Assembly: GCA_002753135.1 (NCBI GenBank)
Contig: PDZV01000014.1
Location: forward strand, 1 to 64,000
DNA: 64,000 nucleotides
Origin: Magnetococcales bacterium WMHbinv6
Lineage (GTDB): Bacteria > Pseudomonadota > Magnetococcia > Magnetococcales > Magnetaquicoccaceae
Direction: 5' to 3'
This document shows positions 3,101 through 52,485 of this stretch, piece after piece. The notes below the pieces were generated by a model. The model saw only the letters and a list, made by a program, of their open reading frames with translations. It had not been told where the DNA came from and did no database searches. Position 1 is the first letter of the stretch. Each line of letters opens with the position of its first letter. The position numbers and the translations under genes were made by a program.

Positions 3101-4825
3101 ATGAACAAGGGTAAACGTTCGCTGCTGTGGCGCAAGGCGCTGATGGCCAGTGTGCTGTTCTTGGCAACTCTGCCAGGCGACGGACAGGCATTTTCTCTGG
3201 GCGAATTGCAGATGCAAAGTCGGCCAGGCCAGCCGTTTCAGGCACAGGCACCGGTCAAACTGAACAAGGATGAGCGGATTGCCTCGGTTGCGATTGGCAG
3301 TGCGGCGGATTATGCCCTCTTGAATTTGCCCTATTCGCCTTCGGTGGAAGGGTTGAGCGTGCAGGCCAAGGAGCAATCGGGCAATACGGTGGTTCAGTTG
3401 CAGGGGCGGGCAGCGATTGCCGAGGATGATTTTTTTATTCTGCTGCGCATCTCCTCTAATCAAAATACTTTTTATCCTTTCTTCCGTCTGCACTCTGCCT
3501 CCGCTGCCCAGCAGGAGAATAAAAGGAGTGGTGGCAAAGAAGAGAGTGTGGCCAAAAAAGTTGAAGAAAAGCCTCTGATCGATCCTGCGGCAGGAGAAAA
3601 GAGCTTTGCCGATAAAGAGAAAAAGGGCAAAGAATACATTGCCGACAAACCGGAAGCGGTCGGCAAAAAAGAGGAAAAAGTGGTCGCCAAAAGTGTGCCG
3701 CCGCGCGAGGCAGACACCACCACGGCAGCAATGATCTCCGATCCGCCCCCGATGGAGAGTGGCACCAGCAAGGTGAGCCTTCCCCCCCCGGAACGGAAAA
3801 AAGTGGAGCGGAAAGAGCCCCCCGCCGAGGCAACTGGTCGGGCAGCAGAACCTGCCGGAGATAAGGCCACGCGATATGGTCCGGTTCGAGAGGGTGAAAA
3901 TCTGACCGAAATTGTTCATCGTCTTAAGCTGGTGCAGAGTCCAAGCTCTTTTTTTCAAGCTGTTGTCGCTATCTGGCAGAAAAATCCCGACCACTTTATT
4001 CGCAATAACATGAATGGTCTGAAGTCTGGTGTCATGTTGCTGATTCCCTCGCAGCAGGAGATTGCCCGCATCGGGGTGGGCGAAGCGAGAAAATTGCGTT
4101 TAAGCCACGCCATGGAATGGAAAAAACCGCTGGAAGGTCAACAAGATATGGCCAAGGTGGATTTTTCTGCGGCAGAGGGTGGGCCGGAAGCCTCCTTATT
4201 GTCTGGAGGTGCGCCGACAGCACAGAGCGAGAGCATGGTTGCCGGCGGTGTAAAACGATCTGCTGGCGCTGGGGTGGGTGGCGAAACGGAGGAGTTGCGG
4301 GCCATTCTACTGCAATTGCAGGTGATTACCAGAGTATTGGAGAGCAATCAAGCCCAGCAGGAACGTTTGGAGCAGCGTATTTCCACTCTGGAGCAGGCAC
4401 GCAAGGAGTGGGAGTATCTTCGGGAGCGCATCAACAGTTTGGAGAACGCCAAGGGGGGGTGGGTGGTCCGGAAAGCAGCCGACACGGCGGAGAGTGTTTC
4501 TCCGGTCGGCAGTTGGTTGTCGCAACTGGATATGTTGGGTACAGGGGCGATGGCCTTGGTGGCAATCTCTCTGCTTGGCTTGCTGGCCTTGTCGGTGGGG
4601 CGGCGGATGAATCAGCAGCAGCGCATGAAAAATTTACAATCGTTGCTCTCTGAGACCAATCGGCAGGATCCTCCTCTGTTGCGTGATACGCTGTCGGTAC
4701 CGGCAGAAGGTGGCGGCAAAGCGGACGGTTTCGGCAAAAAGGGCAGTCCGTCTGGGGGAGAAAGAAACGATTCGGCTGCGATTGTTGCCCAACAGTTGGA
4801 GTCCATGACCGGCAGCAAGCCGTAG
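3101..4825 (+). CDS. FimV-like protein B with C-terminal membrane anchor
   Basis: Paralogue of the gene just upstream (90-nt gap). The ATG at 3101 has GGAG six bases upstream. The signal peptide ends around GQA-FSLGEL (residue 30), then comes the FimV N-terminal domain (about 31-125). A long charged linker rich in Lys/Glu/Pro follows, then the LysM-like module from about 259 (YGPVREGENL) to 335. After a coiled coil (about 395-445) a single hydrophobic helix (about 482-503, MALVAISLLGLLALSVG) precedes a short basic and low-complexity tail, giving the FimV topology of periplasmic N-terminus and one anchor. The large cytoplasmic TPR domain of Pseudomonas FimV is absent. Role in pilus or polarity functions is inferred from family only; no pilus genes are adjacent. 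Confidence 0.75.
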   Translation: MNKGKRSLLWRKALMASVLFLATLPGDGQAFSLGELQMQSRPGQPFQAQAPVKLNKDERIASVAIGSAADYALLNLPYSPSVEGLSVQAKEQSGNTVVQLQGRAAIAEDDFFILLRISSNQNTFYPFFRLHSASAAQQENKRSGGKEESVAKKVEEKPLIDPAAGEKSFADKEKKGKEYIADKPEAVGKKEEKVVAKSVPPREADTTTAAMISDPPPMESGTSKVSLPPPERKKVERKEPPAEATGRAAEPAGDKATRYGPVREGENLTEIVHRLKLVQSPSSFFQAVVAIWQKNPDHFIRNNMNGLKSGVMLLIPSQQEIARIGVGEARKLRLSHAMEWKKPLEGQQDMAKVDFSAAEGGPEASLLSGGAPTAQSESMVAGGVKRSAGAGVGGETEELRAILLQLQVITRVLESNQAQQERLEQRISTLEQARKEWEYLRERINSLENAKGGWVVRKAADTAESVSPVGSWLSQLDMLGTGAMALVAISLLGLLALSVGRRMNQQQRMKNLQSLLSETNRQDPPLLRDTLSVPAEGGGKADGFGKKGSPSGGERNDSAAIVAQQLESMTGSKP

Positions 4826-17414: not shown

Positions 17415-17573
17415 AGGAGCCTGGCAAAAATAACTTGTGCAGATTGCGCCGGATTTTGGTTCGCCCGCTGGGCGCGAAAAGGCGCGCATACTGTCAGTAT
17501 GTAAGCCTTTTCGCAACGACGCGGGCGGGCCAAAAGACAAGCAAGATGTCCAAGTTATTTTTGCTAGGCTCCT
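17415..17573. repeat. 159-bp near-palindromic element (MITE-like or long hairpin)
   Basis: The outer arms 17415-17437 and 17551-17573 are inverted copies matching at 22 of 23 positions. The inner sequence is also self-complementary with interruptions. For example, GCGCGAAAAGGC (left) faces GCCTTTTCGC (right), TTTTGG faces CCAAAA, and the centre is CATACTGTCAGTATG. The right arm ends exactly at the stop codon of the minus-strand kinase gene. The element carries no ORF. It could be a non-autonomous mobile element or a bidirectional terminator; the long terminal arms favour a mobile origin. Confidence 0.7.
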
Positions 17574-47173: not shown

Positions 47174-47177
<4 letters not shown>

Positions 47178-48271
47178 AACGGACGCCGTTATATGAAGAA
47201 CATTGTGCCCTGGGGGGCAAAATGGTGGAATTTTCCGGCTGGGAAATGCCGCTGCATTATGGTTCCCAGTTGCGCGAACATGAAATTGTCCGGCAGCGCT
47301 GCGGGATGTTCGATGTCTCCCACATGGGGGTGATCGATCTGATCGGTGCGCGGGTGGAGGTGATGCTGCGTTTTTTGTTGAGCAACGATGTGGCGCGTAT
47401 TCCCACAGCGGGTCAGGCGCAATATGGCTTGATGCTCAACGCCACCGGCGGCATTTCGGATGATCTGATTGCTTATCGCCAAGGCAAGGACCGTTTTTTT
47501 CTCGTGGTCAATGCCGGCACCCGGGACAAGGCGGTTGCCTGGATCCGCATCCATGCCCCCTCTTACGGGGTGCGGGTGGTGGATCGGCGCGACATGATGA
47601 TTTTGGCCGTGCAAGGACCAAAAGCGGCCAATCAGATACAACGCTGTTTGCCAGAGGGGTTGAGCCGACAGGCTGTTGCACTGAAACCGTTTCATTTTGT
47701 CCAGGATGGCGACTGGCGGGTCGCCCGTACCGGCTATACCGGCGAAGATGGCTTTGAACTGATTGTGCCGGAAGAGAATGGTTTGACGCTGTGGGAAAGT
47801 CTGCTGCGTTCGGGGGTGCAGCCGGTAGGTCTTGGCGCACGGGATACCCTGCGCCTGGAGGCGGGTATGCACTTGTATGGCCATGATATGGATGGTAAAA
47901 GTTCGCCCTTGGAGTCGGGGCTGGCCTGGACCATCGCCTGGGAACCTTTGGATCGGGATTTTATCGGTCGGGATGCCTTGGAGGCGGTGTGGGGACAACC
48001 GGTTGCCCGCAAGCGGGTGGGGCTGCTGTTGTTGGATCGGGGCGTTTTGCGTGATCAACAGGCTGTTTTTCTGCAGAATAGTCCGATCGGCAAAATTACC
48101 AGCGGAGGCTATTCGCCAACCCTGCAACGCGGTATCGCCTTGGCGCGTATCCACAGCGAGATAGCCATTGGCAGCATCTGTCAGGTGGATATGCGTGGCC
48201 GGATGATGGATGTACAGGTGGTGCGCCCCCCCTTTGTGCGCCTGGGCAAGCCCGTCTACCGCGAGGTTTGA
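47174..48271 (+). CDS. gcvT: Glycine cleavage system T protein (aminomethyltransferase)
   Basis: Tetrahydrofolate-dependent aminomethyltransferase of 365 residues. Motifs: [27 protein letters not shown] (in parts), [15 protein letters not shown], and [16 protein letters not shown]. It transfers the methylene carbon of the H-protein intermediate to tetrahydrofolate. It overlaps kdsA by 4 nt (ATGA), an unusual operon partner, while the P-protein genes (gcvPA, gcvPB) lie about 13 kb away on the opposite strand. gcvH is not in the window. Confidence 0.95.
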
Positions 48272-48603
48272 TGGCAGGTTGTACCCCAGTCTTACCCTGC
48301 TGTTGGGGCCTGTTCTCATGCGAGGCCAAAAGTCCTTCAGACAAGGCGCTGGGCCGCGAGCAGCGCAGCATACGAGGTGCATGTGAGCAGCGGAGCGGTC
48401 CAGCAACGCCGTATCAAGGGGTTTTGGACCGAATGAGAACAGTCCCTTGCCAATGGATGGGTTAACATGGTGGTAGCTGTTGCGGTTATTGTTGTTGTAT
48501 CAGCACGGCTGATATTGTGTTGTCTTGGTGCTGGCAAGTTTTTTCTCTTGCTCTGCTGACCGTTGTTATTGTCTGAATACAGGCCGATTTTGGGGAGTGT
48601 GGC
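48272..48603. other. Intergenic region without a gene, carrying a palindromic element
   Basis: The 332-bp gap between gcvT and the hybrid kinase gene contains no convincing ORF. Most of its left half is the palindromic element at 48310-48442. The right part (48443-48603) should hold the promoter of the kinase operon but shows no clear boxes to my reading. Confidence 0.5.
48310..48442. repeat. 133-bp imperfect palindrome (MITE-like)
   Basis: CTGTTCTCAT at 48310-48319 and its inverse ATGAGAACAG at 48433-48442 form perfect 10-nt ends. Inner segments also pair (CCAAAA with TTTTGG, AAGG with CCTT, GGCG with CGCC, CCGC with GCGG) around a centre near CATACGAGGTGCATG. The shared CCAAAA spacing and CATAC centre resemble the element at 17415-17573, although the outer arms differ. 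Confidence 0.6.
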
Positions 48604-51600
48604 GTGAAGGGGAGTTCTGCCCGATTAAAGATTATCCCTCGGATATTTGCGGGATTTTTCACCTTGATTTTTCTGATACTGTTGAGCAGCGCCATCAGCT
48701 ATCGCGATTTGCTGCAGTTGGGTGACGGCTTTGACCGTTATGCGGAGATGACGGAAGAGGCGATGGGCCTGGTTTCGTTAGAGCAAACGTTGGCAGATAT
48801 CCGGCAGACGCTGTTGTTGGCCATGATCAGTGGCGATGAAAAAACGGTCCGTGGTAGTCAGGAGATGTTGGACCATGCCCAGCAGCAGGTAGAACAGATT
48901 GAGCAGCATTTATTGCAGGCGGAAGAGAGTGTGTCGTTGCACCGCATTGCCGCGATTGTGCAGTCGTTGCAGAGCGGTTTGCCTCGCCTGACCGAGCTGT
49001 TGACGGCGCGTCGGCAGTTGTTTTATGCCCAGTGGTTACCCGCCGAGCAGACGTTGTCCGCGCAATTGGCCAAGATGACTCTCCTCTACCGTGAGCAGCA
49101 GGATCAGGAGGGGATGGACAGATTGCTGGAAGCAGAGCAACATCTGCAAAAAGTCGGATTGATGCTGGCCCGTCTTTCCGGGATGAATGATGCTGCCGAG
49201 TTGCCAGAAGTGGCCTATGAAGGCCGCCGCTTGCTGGATGCCCTCGAAGGGTTGGGCGAAAAACCGGTTGAGCTGCAGGCGGCAGCAGACCATTTCTGGC
49301 AAGTGTTGCAGCAGGCTTTGCAGGTAGAGAGGGAAAACAGTGCGTTGGCCCGTACCATACTGCAAGGTGAGGCCACGGAGTTTGCGACTTTGACCAGAGG
49401 TGTGTTGGCAAAACACAATCGTATTTTACAACAATTATACGTTGATACCAGCGAACGCAATCACGCGGCAACCCTCTTTGTTGGTGGCGTGGTTTTTTTG
49501 GTTTGTCTTGTCTCGCTGCTCATTGCCAGTTGGCTGTCCAAAACCATTTCAACGCCCATGCAGCGCATCACGGAGGTAATGAGCCGTTTGACCCAGGGGG
49601 AGTTGGCAATTGTCATTCCTGGTATCAAGCGTCAAGATGAAATTGGCGAGATGGCGCGGGCTTTGGAAGTGTTGCAACGTTCGATGCAGTCTGTCGAGTT
49701 GCAGCACTGGATCAAAAACAACTCGGTCACTTTGAATCAGATCATGCTGCAGGCCTCTGGAGTGAAAGCCTTTTCCCAGGGCTTGATCGAGGCGTGGGTG
49801 CCGATCATTGGCGGTGTGCAGGGGGCGTTGTTCTATTTTGATGAACAGGAACAGCGTTTACAACGGTGGGGGGGATATGCCCTGACGGCCCGTGCAGAAC
49901 ATGGGAGTTCCTTTGCTCTGGGAGAGTCCCTTGTCGGGCAATGTGCCCTCAACCGGCAGGTGATTGAACTGGAAAATGTGCCTTATGGCTATGCCTGGAT
50001 CAGTTCCGGCATCGGCGAAACGGAGGCGATTCGTTTAACGATCGTGCCGTTGCTGTGGCAGGACCGTTTACAGGGGGTTCTGGAGGTGGCCTCCCTGTTG
50101 CCGCGCAGTGCCAGGCAGCAGCAATTGCTGCTGGAAGTGGCCGATCTGGCCGCACTGAATATGGAAATGTTGCGCCGCACCCTGCGCACGCAGGAGTTGT
50201 TGCAACAGACGCAGCAGCAGGCTGAGGCTCTGCGCCAATCGCAAGCGGTGTTGATGCAGAAAGAGGATGCGCTGCTCCTCACCAACCAACAGCTGCGCGA
50301 ACGGGGCGAAATGTTGGAAGCGCAAACAGAAGAGTTGCGTACCTCGACAGAGGAGTTGCGGGTTCAGGGCGAAGAGTTGCGGGTTGCCAATGAAGCGTTG
50401 GCAGAAAAGGCCAAATTATTGGAAGAACGGGAAAAATCCCTTGTCGAAGCAAGAGGAGAGGCCGAAAAGCGGGCTTTTGAACGCGAGTTGGCATCTCGAT
50501 ACAAGTCGGAATTTTTGGCCAACATGTCGCATGAGCTGCGCACCCCCTTGAACAGTTTGCTGATTTTGGCCGAGAGCCTCTCCAGCAACAGTGATGGCAA
50601 TTTGCTGCCGGAACAGGTGGAGTCGGCAACGATCATTCATGAGAGCGGCACCCATTTATTGCGTCTGATCAATGATATTCTCGATATTGCCAAAGTAGAG
50701 GCTGGTCGGATGGAGCTGTTTGCCGAGGTGATCAGCCTCTCGGAGTTGCTGGCGGTGATGGAACGTCGTTTCCGTCGTATGGCCCAGGGGCGTGGTATTC
50801 GTTTGCGAACGCTGATGGGTGAGCATGTGCCGGACAAACTGCATACGGATCGGGGCAAACTGGAGCAGATTTTGACCAATTTGCTGGGCAATGCCATCAA
50901 ATTTACCGAGCAGGGAGAGGTGCGTCTGGAGGTGCTGGCCTGGGAGGGGCAGGGGGTCAAACTGCAGGTGAGCGACAGCGGCATTGGCATTGCGGCAGAA
51001 AATCTGGAGAACATTTTTGAGGCTTTTGCCCAAGCCGATGGGACCACCAATCGTCGTTTTGGTGGATCGGGGCTCGGTTTGACCATTGCCCGCAAATTGG
51101 CACAACTGCTGGGGGGCGAAATCAAAGTCAGCAGCCAACTGGGCGTGGGCAGTCAATTTACCGTCTGGTTGCCGGATGCGGGCCAGGAGATGGCTGCACT
51201 GGCCTGCATACCCACAGAGGAGATGATGGCCTCTGGAATGGTGCGGCAAAGCCCAGACAATCGTGCCTACCCGGAAGATGATCGGGAGCAGATGGATGAA
51301 GGGGAACCGCTCATTTTGGTTGTAGAGGACGATCCGGTGTTTGCCGGCATGACCTATGCCCAGGCCCGGAACAAGGGATTGCGTTGTTTGCTGGCCAGAG
51401 ATGGGAGGAATGCTCTGTTGTTGGCCCAACGTTATCAACCGATGGGAATCATTCTCGACGTGGGCTTGCCGGATATGGATGGCTGGGAAGTGATGAATCG
51501 TCTTAAACAGGATCCGCAAACCCAGCGTATTCCGGTCCATTTTGTCTCTGCCCTGGATGCCCGCTTACGGGCGATGGGTATGGGTGCCGTTGGCTTTTTG

Positions 51601-52485
51601 ACCAAGCCGATCACCCAGGAACAGTTGATCACGGTTTTTGATCGGGTGACGGAAGCGGCGCAGGGGGGCAAGCTCAAGCATGTCCTGGTCATGGATGCGG
51701 ATGCGCTTTCCCGGCAGGAGGTGGTGCAATTATTACGACATGCCGAGGTGGTGGTCGAAGAGGCTGCCAGCGGAGAGGGTTGTTTGATACGTCTGCGCAG
51801 CGGGGGAATACACTGTTTGATTTTGGATTTGGGCGTGGCAGTCAATGAGGGTGTTGCCTTTTTGCACCGTTTGGTGACCGAATTGGGGGAGGCGATGCCA
51901 CCGGTGGTGGTCTATTCGCCACGCAATTTGACCACAGAAGAGTTGATTCATTTCCGGGAGTTTACCGACAGTATCATCATTCGCAGCGACCGCTCTGACC
52001 ATCGCCTGCAGGAGGAGGTGGAAAATTTTCTTACCCAGGTGCAAGGCAATGTCGCCCTGCTCAAAAGTGAAGCAGCCCCCGATTTTTCCTGGGAAGGACG
52101 CAAAATTTTGGTGGTGGATGACGATATGCGCAACACCTTTGCCCTGTCCAAGGTGTTGCGCAGCAAAGGGATGAAGGTTCTTATGGCGCAGGATGGCAAC
52201 AAAGCGTTGGCCCAGTTGGCGAGCAATCGGGATGTGCAGTTGGTGTTGATGGATATCATGATGCCGGACAAAGATGGCTATCAGACCATGCAGGAGATGC
52301 GCCGCCAGGAGCAATGGCAATCCCTGCCCATCGTGGCTTTGACGGCCAAGGCCATGAGTGGCGACCGGGAACGCTGTTTGGCCGCCGGGGCCAATGACTA
52401 TTTGACCAAACCGGTCAATTTGGAACTGTTGTTGGTTAAAATGGCCCATCTGTTGAGTGAACAGGAGCAGAAAACAGGTCAATGA
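48604..52485 (+). CDS. Membrane hybrid histidine kinase (HAMP-GAF-HisKA-HATPase-REC x3)
   Basis: Sensor kinase of 1293 residues starting at a GTG. A first membrane helix (about 11-31) and a second (about 290-308) flank a mainly helical periplasmic sensor of about 255 residues. Next come HAMP (about 308-360), a GAF-like domain (about 385-520) and a long coiled coil (about 520-635) with heptads containing EEL repeated every seven residues. HisKA has its His near 643 (NMSHELRTPLNSL), followed by HATPase (NLLGNAIKF, DSGIGIA, GSGLGLTIARKL) and three receiver-like domains (about 900-1020, 1025-1140, 1165-1285). The first (LDVGLPDMDGWEV) and third (LMDIMMPDKDGYQTM, KPVN) look active; the middle one lacks the usual Lys and is probably degenerate. 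It overlaps cheR by 4 nt, heading a four-gene coupled operon. Confidence 0.88.
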   Translation: MKGSSARLKIIPRIFAGFFTLIFLILLSSAISYRDLLQLGDGFDRYAEMTEEAMGLVSLEQTLADIRQTLLLAMISGDEKTVRGSQEMLDHAQQQVEQIEQHLLQAEESVSLHRIAAIVQSLQSGLPRLTELLTARRQLFYAQWLPAEQTLSAQLAKMTLLYREQQDQEGMDRLLEAEQHLQKVGLMLARLSGMNDAAELPEVAYEGRRLLDALEGLGEKPVELQAAADHFWQVLQQALQVERENSALARTILQGEATEFATLTRGVLAKHNRILQQLYVDTSERNHAATLFVGGVVFLVCLVSLLIASWLSKTISTPMQRITEVMSRLTQGELAIVIPGIKRQDEIGEMARALEVLQRSMQSVELQHWIKNNSVTLNQIMLQASGVKAFSQGLIEAWVPIIGGVQGALFYFDEQEQRLQRWGGYALTARAEHGSSFALGESLVGQCALNRQVIELENVPYGYAWISSGIGETEAIRLTIVPLLWQDRLQGVLEVASLLPRSARQQQLLLEVADLAALNMEMLRRTLRTQELLQQTQQQAEALRQSQAVLMQKEDALLLTNQQLRERGEMLEAQTEELRTSTEELRVQGEELRVANEALAEKAKLLEEREKSLVEARGEAEKRAFERELASRYKSEFLANMSHELRTPLNSLLILAESLSSNSDGNLLPEQVESATIIHESGTHLLRLINDILDIAKVEAGRMELFAEVISLSELLAVMERRFRRMAQGRGIRLRTLMGEHVPDKLHTDRGKLEQILTNLLGNAIKFTEQGEVRLEVLAWEGQGVKLQVSDSGIGIAAENLENIFEAFAQADGTTNRRFGGSGLGLTIARKLAQLLGGEIKVSSQLGVGSQFTVWLPDAGQEMAALACIPTEEMMASGMVRQSPDNRAYPEDDREQMDEGEPLILVVEDDPVFAGMTYAQARNKGLRCLLARDGRNALLLAQRYQPMGIILDVGLPDMDGWEVMNRLKQDPQTQRIPVHFVSALDARLRAMGMGAVGFLTKPITQEQLITVFDRVTEAAQGGKLKHVLVMDADALSRQEVVQLLRHAEVVVEEAASGEGCLIRLRSGGIHCLILDLGVAVNEGVAFLHRLVTELGEAMPPVVVYSPRNLTTEELIHFREFTDSIIIRSDRSDHRLQEEVENFLTQVQGNVALLKSEAAPDFSWEGRKILVVDDDMRNTFALSKVLRSKGMKVLMAQDGNKALAQLASNRDVQLVLMDIMMPDKDGYQTMQEMRRQEQWQSLPIVALTAKAMSGDRERCLAAGANDYLTKPVNLELLLVKMAHLLSEQEQKTGQ

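Follow-up and report, generated by a model that had tools for sequence, protein, structure and literature searches.

Within the window analysed here, a contiguous stretch of 64,000 nucleotides from a Magnetococcales genome, a 141-bp palindromic, MITE-like element on the forward strand (48306-48446), designated B1, occupies the gap between two ORFs of the same orientation. The upstream neighbour (47174-48271), which has matches in all 19 genomes searched, ends about 34 bp short of the palindrome and is provisionally called gcvT-like, a name read from the sequence without a database call. The downstream neighbour (48604-52485) resembles a hybrid sensor kinase, as judged by eye. Mechanically called ORFs on the opposite strand run across B1 and were not taken for genes. 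In two other members of the same genus (G004 and G006, gcvT 88% identical), a similar kinase-like neighbour, again recognized by eye, lies beside gcvT with no palindrome; of the remaining four genomes of the genus compared at this site, the neighbour differs in three (G001, G003 and G005) and one (G002) is represented there by N. Loss could also explain the palindrome-free gcvT-kinase gaps, which are too diverged to provide an exact empty site.

A sequence-only reading of this stretch had reported a palindrome of 133 bp at 48310-48442. The palindrome is real: its self-palindrome score is 98, whereas 1000 base shuffles averaged -8 (sd 12.6) and reached 36 at most. The boundaries were drawn too tightly, however: aligned copies from the same genome, on which the bounds adopted here rest, span GGGCCTGTTC to GAACAGGCCC, extending 4 bp further on each side. 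In a gapped alignment of the full element with its reverse complement, 104 of 141 bases agree; the arms are imperfect, and B1 was absent from a search for inverted repeats whose arms measure 25 nt or more. Folded as RNA, the element reaches -72.9 kcal/mol (z = -6.5), a value equalled by none of 200 shuffles. Its termini are inverted repeats, comprising GGGCCTGTTCTCATGCG on the left (48306-48322, forward strand), which was found by pattern search with one mismatch and has the family form GGGCCTGTTCTCATTCG, and GGGACTGTTCTCATTCG on the right (48430-48446, reverse strand), an exact pattern match. At 141 bp, lacking a gene of its own and present in many copies, B1 conforms to the short (50-500 bp), gene-less format of MITEs.

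Copies and subtypes in the source genome

The source genome (G000) is a 3.84-Mb draft in 80 contigs, estimated to be 96% complete. The sequence-only reading had linked B1 to a second palindrome in the window, and had proposed that the two belong to a dispersed family of hairpin elements carrying different terminal arms; it had also named the absence of further copies as the outcome that would count against this. Searches of the genome returned 43 match rows with B as the query and 29 with A, the second palindrome (157 bp, 17416-17572, forward strand); both counts take in fragments as well as rows in which the same palindrome is matched on the reverse strand. The proposed family is thus borne out by many copies and by a common core that is recovered with a model trained outside this order (below). 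Pairs of left and right B ends, 139-147 bp apart and with 10 or more of 13 end bases in agreement, occur at 16 places, and the end patterns were counted against controls that gave zero matches.

B elements fall into two subtypes that have a common core and different ends, typified by GGGCCTGTTCTCATTCG in B1 and GGGCGTGTTGACATTTG in B2. Alignment of one B1 with one B2 copy shows that it is the centre, rather than the periphery, that is conserved: 74 of 84 core positions are identical, compared with 26 of 34 in the 17-bp ends and 8 of 21 in the outer arms. A is a sister element, having the same core and other ends; its copies bear GGAGCCTGGCGAAAATAACTTG termini, of the form GGAGCC...GGCTCC. The difference in ends between the two palindromes had been noted correctly, and resolves into IS5-like ends in B and ISAzo13-like ends in A. 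Similarly, the CATAC-type centre seen in both proves to be part of the conserved core. The CCAAAA/TTTTGG pair, which had been listed as a further shared motif, does not hold up, occurring in opposite order in B and A and being missing from B2 copies such as that at C15:7511.

Several arrangements of copies were observed in passing. At C39:16320-16605, a B2 and a B1 copy stand back to back with one TA between them, and at C22:18640-18941 (L044, L050) a B2-type copy directly abuts an A copy. Four A copies (L050, L054, L055 and L057) start inside apparent TAA stop codons that end the preceding gene, an insertion mode by which the stop is kept.

A conserved core and its distribution

A collection of genome contigs was scanned with the pattern AAGGCG-N-GCATAC-N-GTATGTGAGC, yielding at least 113 stretches where a few would be expected by chance, as estimated from base composition alone. 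Because the pattern fixes three boxes, their invariance in the resulting alignment (A1) is a product of selection by the scan; independent evidence comes from features outside the pattern. Among the 113 matches listed, 94 have CAAC[GA]C no more than 45 bases downstream, compared with 34 of 1740 control windows, and 19 lack it within that distance. The outer arms also pair, with a median longest run of 10 versus 6 after shuffling in 100 loci among the matches listed. Of the 113, 22 lay outside the reference list; removal of 33 near-duplicates from the other 91 left 58, from which six were withheld from A1, namely three Magnetococcales loci (L188, L227, L263) and three omitted by choice (L241, L257, L273), two of the latter being of unusual length. 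The covariance model R1 was built from the remaining 52 rows, none of them from Magnetococcales by record title. By the same titles, 26 rows are Thermodesulfobacteriota, 11 Pseudomonadota, six Myxococcota (all titled only 'Deltaproteobacteria'), two Bacteroidota and one Bacillota, and six carry no phylum.

The alignment underlying R1 shows covariation. Paired cells amount to 91.5%, against 74.1% in shuffled alignments and at most 47.4% after sliding, and 222 cells are changed on both sides versus 67 in shuffles, a comparison that is not strict, the rows being related. Less telling are the counts by pair: eight of 25 pairs are invariant, and 16 show double changes, a number reached in 12 of 500 shuffles. 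Within stems that change rapidly while mostly staying complementary, four slightly asymmetric boxes persist (AAGGCG, AGCGSAGCATAC, GTATGTGAGCA and CAACGCMG). In the window copy, where the core spans 48329-48423 on the forward strand, all four are read on that strand. Box 1 (AAGGCG, 48343-48348) shows no variation in A1, being one of the boxes that the scan pattern fixes. Box 2 (48362-48373) reads AGCGCAGCATAC where the family has AGCGSAGCATAC, and combines the pattern-fixed GCATAC with AGCG, which lies outside the pattern and is at least 90% conserved in the 52 rows. Box 3 (48379-48389) contains the pattern-fixed GTATGTGAGC and reads GCATGTGAGCA where the family has GTATGTGAGCA, the window copy having C at a position that is T in the family. 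Box 4 (CAACGCCG, 48404-48411) corresponds to the CAAC[GA]C found downstream of scan matches, outside the pattern.

Applied to the window, with rows reported to E 10, R1 places B1 first (54.1 bits, E 4.8e-13 in 64 kb) and A second (38.8 bits, E 1.3e-8; core at 17455-17533, forward strand). A weak third match lies at 3120-3184 (17.2 bits, E 0.026), and a further one was encountered elsewhere in the genome, on the reverse strand of contig C24 (L090 656-754; 36.0 bits, E 1.5e-7). A reversed-sequence model, R2, returned from the window one weak row located elsewhere (E 0.28) and neither palindrome; R2, which draws on 26 of the 52 rows and has no positive control, speaks to false alarms only. These results bear on the proposal that the B and A palindromes have no common origin and arose as hairpins by chance or convergence. 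Little identity between B and A outside the boxes, and the opposite order of CCAAAA/TTTTGG, could be cited in its favour, yet one independently trained model finds both elements and its reversed counterpart neither, which refutes a chance resemblance at these E-values unless their rough calibration is wrong by many orders of magnitude. We regard this proposal as extremely improbable, and the sharing of internal motifs by chance, which the sequence-only reading had raised against itself, is countered by the same figures.

R1 also performs on loci that were chosen by their ends rather than their core: in two genomes (G018 and G023) it matches 17 of 18 such loci (E 1.5e-14 to 2.5e-20), the unmatched one, L121, carrying an internal deletion. 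The apical stem of the G018 copies departs from the trained form on both of its sides, and the other boxes remain. Seven loci with A copies score 27 to 44 bits.

The core is widely distributed. At E 1e-5, R1 matches are present in 128 of 398 genomes drawn from the phylum, in 58 of 212 genera, with 18 of the 128 in the order of the source genome; no more than 10 candidates were scored per genome, which makes the copy numbers minimum values, and this sample may hold sources of R1 training rows. R2 matches none of the 398. All 17 genomes picked for a scan match are matched by R1, at least one match in each being guaranteed by that choice. Among these 17, the matches number 15 in Alistipes, 14 in a Clostridia MAG, 46 in a Desulfobacterales MAG and seven in Yersinia rohdei, while single matches occur in Bacillota, Anaerolinea and Pantoea records, among which metagenome bins may be contaminated. 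Record titles place the core in Pseudomonadota, Thermodesulfobacteriota and Bacteroidota, and also in individual bins assigned to other phyla.

Target sites and the origin of the ends

One insertion is nested. At C15:7511-7652, a B2 copy splits an A copy with an exact TA duplication, intact A copies reading ...GCATACTTTTAGTATG... where the split copy reads ...ACTTTTA-[B2]-TAGTATG.... Among 48 complete copies in loci fetched from the source genome and its relatives, TA flanks both sides in 22 and at least one side in 42; the remaining copies often have CA at the left or TG at the right, and many copies are flanked by CA/TA or TA/TG, which are not exact duplicates. Viewed together, the flanking dinucleotides of the 48 copies show strand-symmetric variation at the outer position of the target copy. 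Target-site duplication is accordingly seen in part of the family and in the nested insertion; the window copy, flanked by TG on the left and TT on the right, has no intact one. Identical 3-bp flanks, TTA or TAA, were counted by eye in seven of 13 A copies.

Candidate sources of the ends were found in relatives. Five complete IS5-family elements of 821-846 bp with GGGC[GC]TGTT-type ends (L125, L131, L136, L145, L148) are all flanked by TA; a sixth, L149, is a deleted form of 425 bp with flanks of CA and TA. L125 carries GGGCCTGTTCTCAATC at both ends, close to the B1 termini, and in another genome (G025) TAGGGCCTGTTCACAAT is common to an IS end (L127, of which a single end was seen) and to MITE ends. 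The L145 protein matches the NCBIfam IS5 model NF033580 with E 4.7e-87. Relatives supplied 30 DUF4096 (IS5-type) loci, of which 17 have a GGGNNTGTTNNCA-type end on one or both sides and 13 lack such an end; in L139, ends of this type belong to an adjoining MITE and not to the DUF4096 fragment. For A, the corresponding element is an ISAzo13-family IS of 1320 bp (L332 in G042), which has A-like AGGAGCCTAGCAAAAATAA at both ends and TA on both sides, and whose transposase matches NF033519 with E 8e-151. Both pairings, of A with ISAzo13 and of B1 with IS5, come from other genomes of the order. In the 96% complete draft of the source genome there is no match to PF13340 (DUF4096) or PF07592 (ISAzo13), and neither PF13340 nor the end pattern revealed an autonomous IS with B ends; in the sequence listed around six places bearing an end only, no convincing second end was seen. 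An IS630 (PF13358) partner was considered and dropped, a clear GGGCGTGTTGACATTCG end appearing among 30 loci only in L173, and there on one side.

The core was sought in these transposase loci as well. R1 found no match in 40 of 41 (30 DUF4096 and 11 ISAzo13); the sole match, L139 1795-1890, is the MITE beside the DUF4096 fragment. Derivation of B by internal deletion of an IS5 element (type I) was rejected, the core being without a match in 29 of 30 DUF4096 loci. B would thus be of type II, related to its putative partner by the ends only; and since the core accompanies ends of two transposase families while being absent from the transposase loci searched, it is best regarded as a separate module. 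B elements thus resemble IS5-family MITEs (DUF4096 group, NF033580-type transposase) in their ends, in the TA at insertion, in lacking genes and in their many copies, but differ by a long conserved hairpin core unmatched in those 40 loci. ISAzo13-family IS (PF07592, NF033519) resemble the sister element A in their ends, differ from B in theirs, and do not contain the core.

Under the standard MITE model, which B fits, non-autonomous elements are mobilized in trans by a transposase that matches their ends. The likeness of B ends to IS ends in relatives suggests that an IS5-family (DUF4096/DDE) transposase, acting in trans, may insert B at TA, and that A would be a sister element bearing the same core within ISAzo13-family-like ends, the ends having perhaps been exchanged over time.

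Affinities and possible roles of the core

The core has likenesses to two well-known repeats. ERIC (enterobacterial repetitive intergenic consensus) has similar AAGGCG, GGAGC-TAC and GTA-GTGA boxes in the same order, and one E. coli copy scores 22.3 bits with R1 (E 8.2e-6 in 619 bases, E 0.0011 in 79,713 bases) and at most 4.1 bits with R2. TA is reported at the termini of ERIC (PMC2229807). The ends of ERIC and B differ, and the one ERIC copy tested falls below the genome-wide R1 threshold; assignment of B to ERIC over its approximately 127 bp was rejected, the ends differing and the match being confined to the core boxes. In Correia (NEMIS, CREE) elements of Neisseria the likeness lies in the ACAAGGCG and CAACGCCG boxes, with other ends and another apical loop. 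One 105-bp Correia copy scores 21.9 bits with R1 (E 9.1e-6 in 517 bases) and 12.4 bits with R2, the latter being the highest R2 score among the ERIC, Correia and Cupriavidus loci. The 155-bp Correia form gave no R1 match (E 1.5), and an N. gonorrhoeae record gave none at E 1e-5 under strict filters. B was not accepted as a Correia element, its ends being GGGCCTGTTCTCATTCG and not the CREE ends read in L342 (26-bp Correia end repeats). We also observed a match to the Correia core, at 85% identity and 20.7 bits with R1, on the megaplasmid of Cupriavidus metallidurans CH34 (L344), and noted that NZ_CP119140.1, a chromosome-sized (2.17 Mb) N. gonorrhoeae sequence, is filed as a plasmid. Taken together, the link of the core to ERIC and Correia is suggestive. 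A literature search, with subscription journals mostly outside its scope, found no description of a shared core. The accessible portions of PMC2229807, PMC10969869, PMC2267715, PMC2649163 (Correia only) and PMC3733652 make no mention of one and name the families separately, with bacterial MITEs listed per host as separate families in those of PMC10969869, PMC2229807 and PMC2267715; PMC2229807 states that, with the exception of RUP, likenesses of such repeats to IS ends had not been sought or found.

Palindromes that are dispersed and intergenic also invite comparison with REP/REPIN or integron attC-type hairpins, handled as single strands by HUH or tyrosine enzymes. REP/REPIN sequences are moved by RAYT. 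A length of 141 bp and the nested TA duplication rule against B as a REP/REPIN, and the same duplication, together with ends like those of DDE-type IS, contradicts the wider single-strand reading, which we consider very improbable. REP/REPIN palindromes measure 20-40 bp, according to PMC3733652.

Two other explanations concern what the core does, if anything. It might act as RNA, transcribed with the neighbouring gene and tuning expression as a substrate of RNase III or RNase E or as a terminator-like structure, in the manner of Correia and ERIC. The very stable fold of B1 and its position downstream of gcvT are compatible with this, and there is precedent in the RNase III cutting of Correia RNA and the RNase E effects of ERIC cited in the accessible part of PMC10969869. 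No Rfam family matched the window, however, and insertions occur without a preferred orientation relative to genes even though the boxes are strand-specific. Under crude gene calling, 71 of 75 classified loci lie between ORFs, and copies in tandem gene contexts are sense in 16 cases and antisense in 21, with nine convergent and seven divergent, a count that left out four Magnetococcales loci and loci close to contig ends and did not exclude two others of that order, L285 and L296, by name. Host selection for a strand-specific role in RNA predicts a bias, and none was seen, which favours a role at the level of DNA; we consider the RNA explanation possible but unlikely. Alternatively, B could be an ordinary MITE whose functionless core appears conserved merely through recent common descent and horizontal spread. 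The agreement of B1 and B2 cores and the near-identity of copies within genomes are in keeping with that view, but comparison across distant bacteria shows stems reshuffled by compensatory changes around boxes that persist, an outcome that neutral descent would not give. Box 4 and AGCG are kept even though they lie outside the scan pattern, in which the other three boxes are fixed, and in G018 the remaining boxes survive alteration of both sides of the apical stem. This explanation accordingly seems to us rather improbable.

We consider it probable, on balance, that B is a non-autonomous MITE with IS5-type ends, whose core has been kept as a reusable module. We favour a role for the core at the DNA level, in the mobility of the element itself: it would be kept because it is useful to the element, most likely by forming a DNA hairpin or offering a site for protein binding, in a capacity independent of which transposase fits the ends. 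More tentatively, and with somewhat less than even confidence, we suggest that a hidden superfamily of bacterial MITEs, to which ERIC and Correia would belong, is built on a single ancient hairpin module and takes on the ends of available transposases, the four boxes being a docking site for a widely conserved factor of host or element. If the core is common to several phyla and to two transposase families, many MITE families would be joined and could be annotated with a single model; if it is shared with ERIC and Correia, the purpose of their hairpins would become directly testable through mutation of the boxes. Such sharing of the core would further hint that non-autonomous elements are able to switch transposases.
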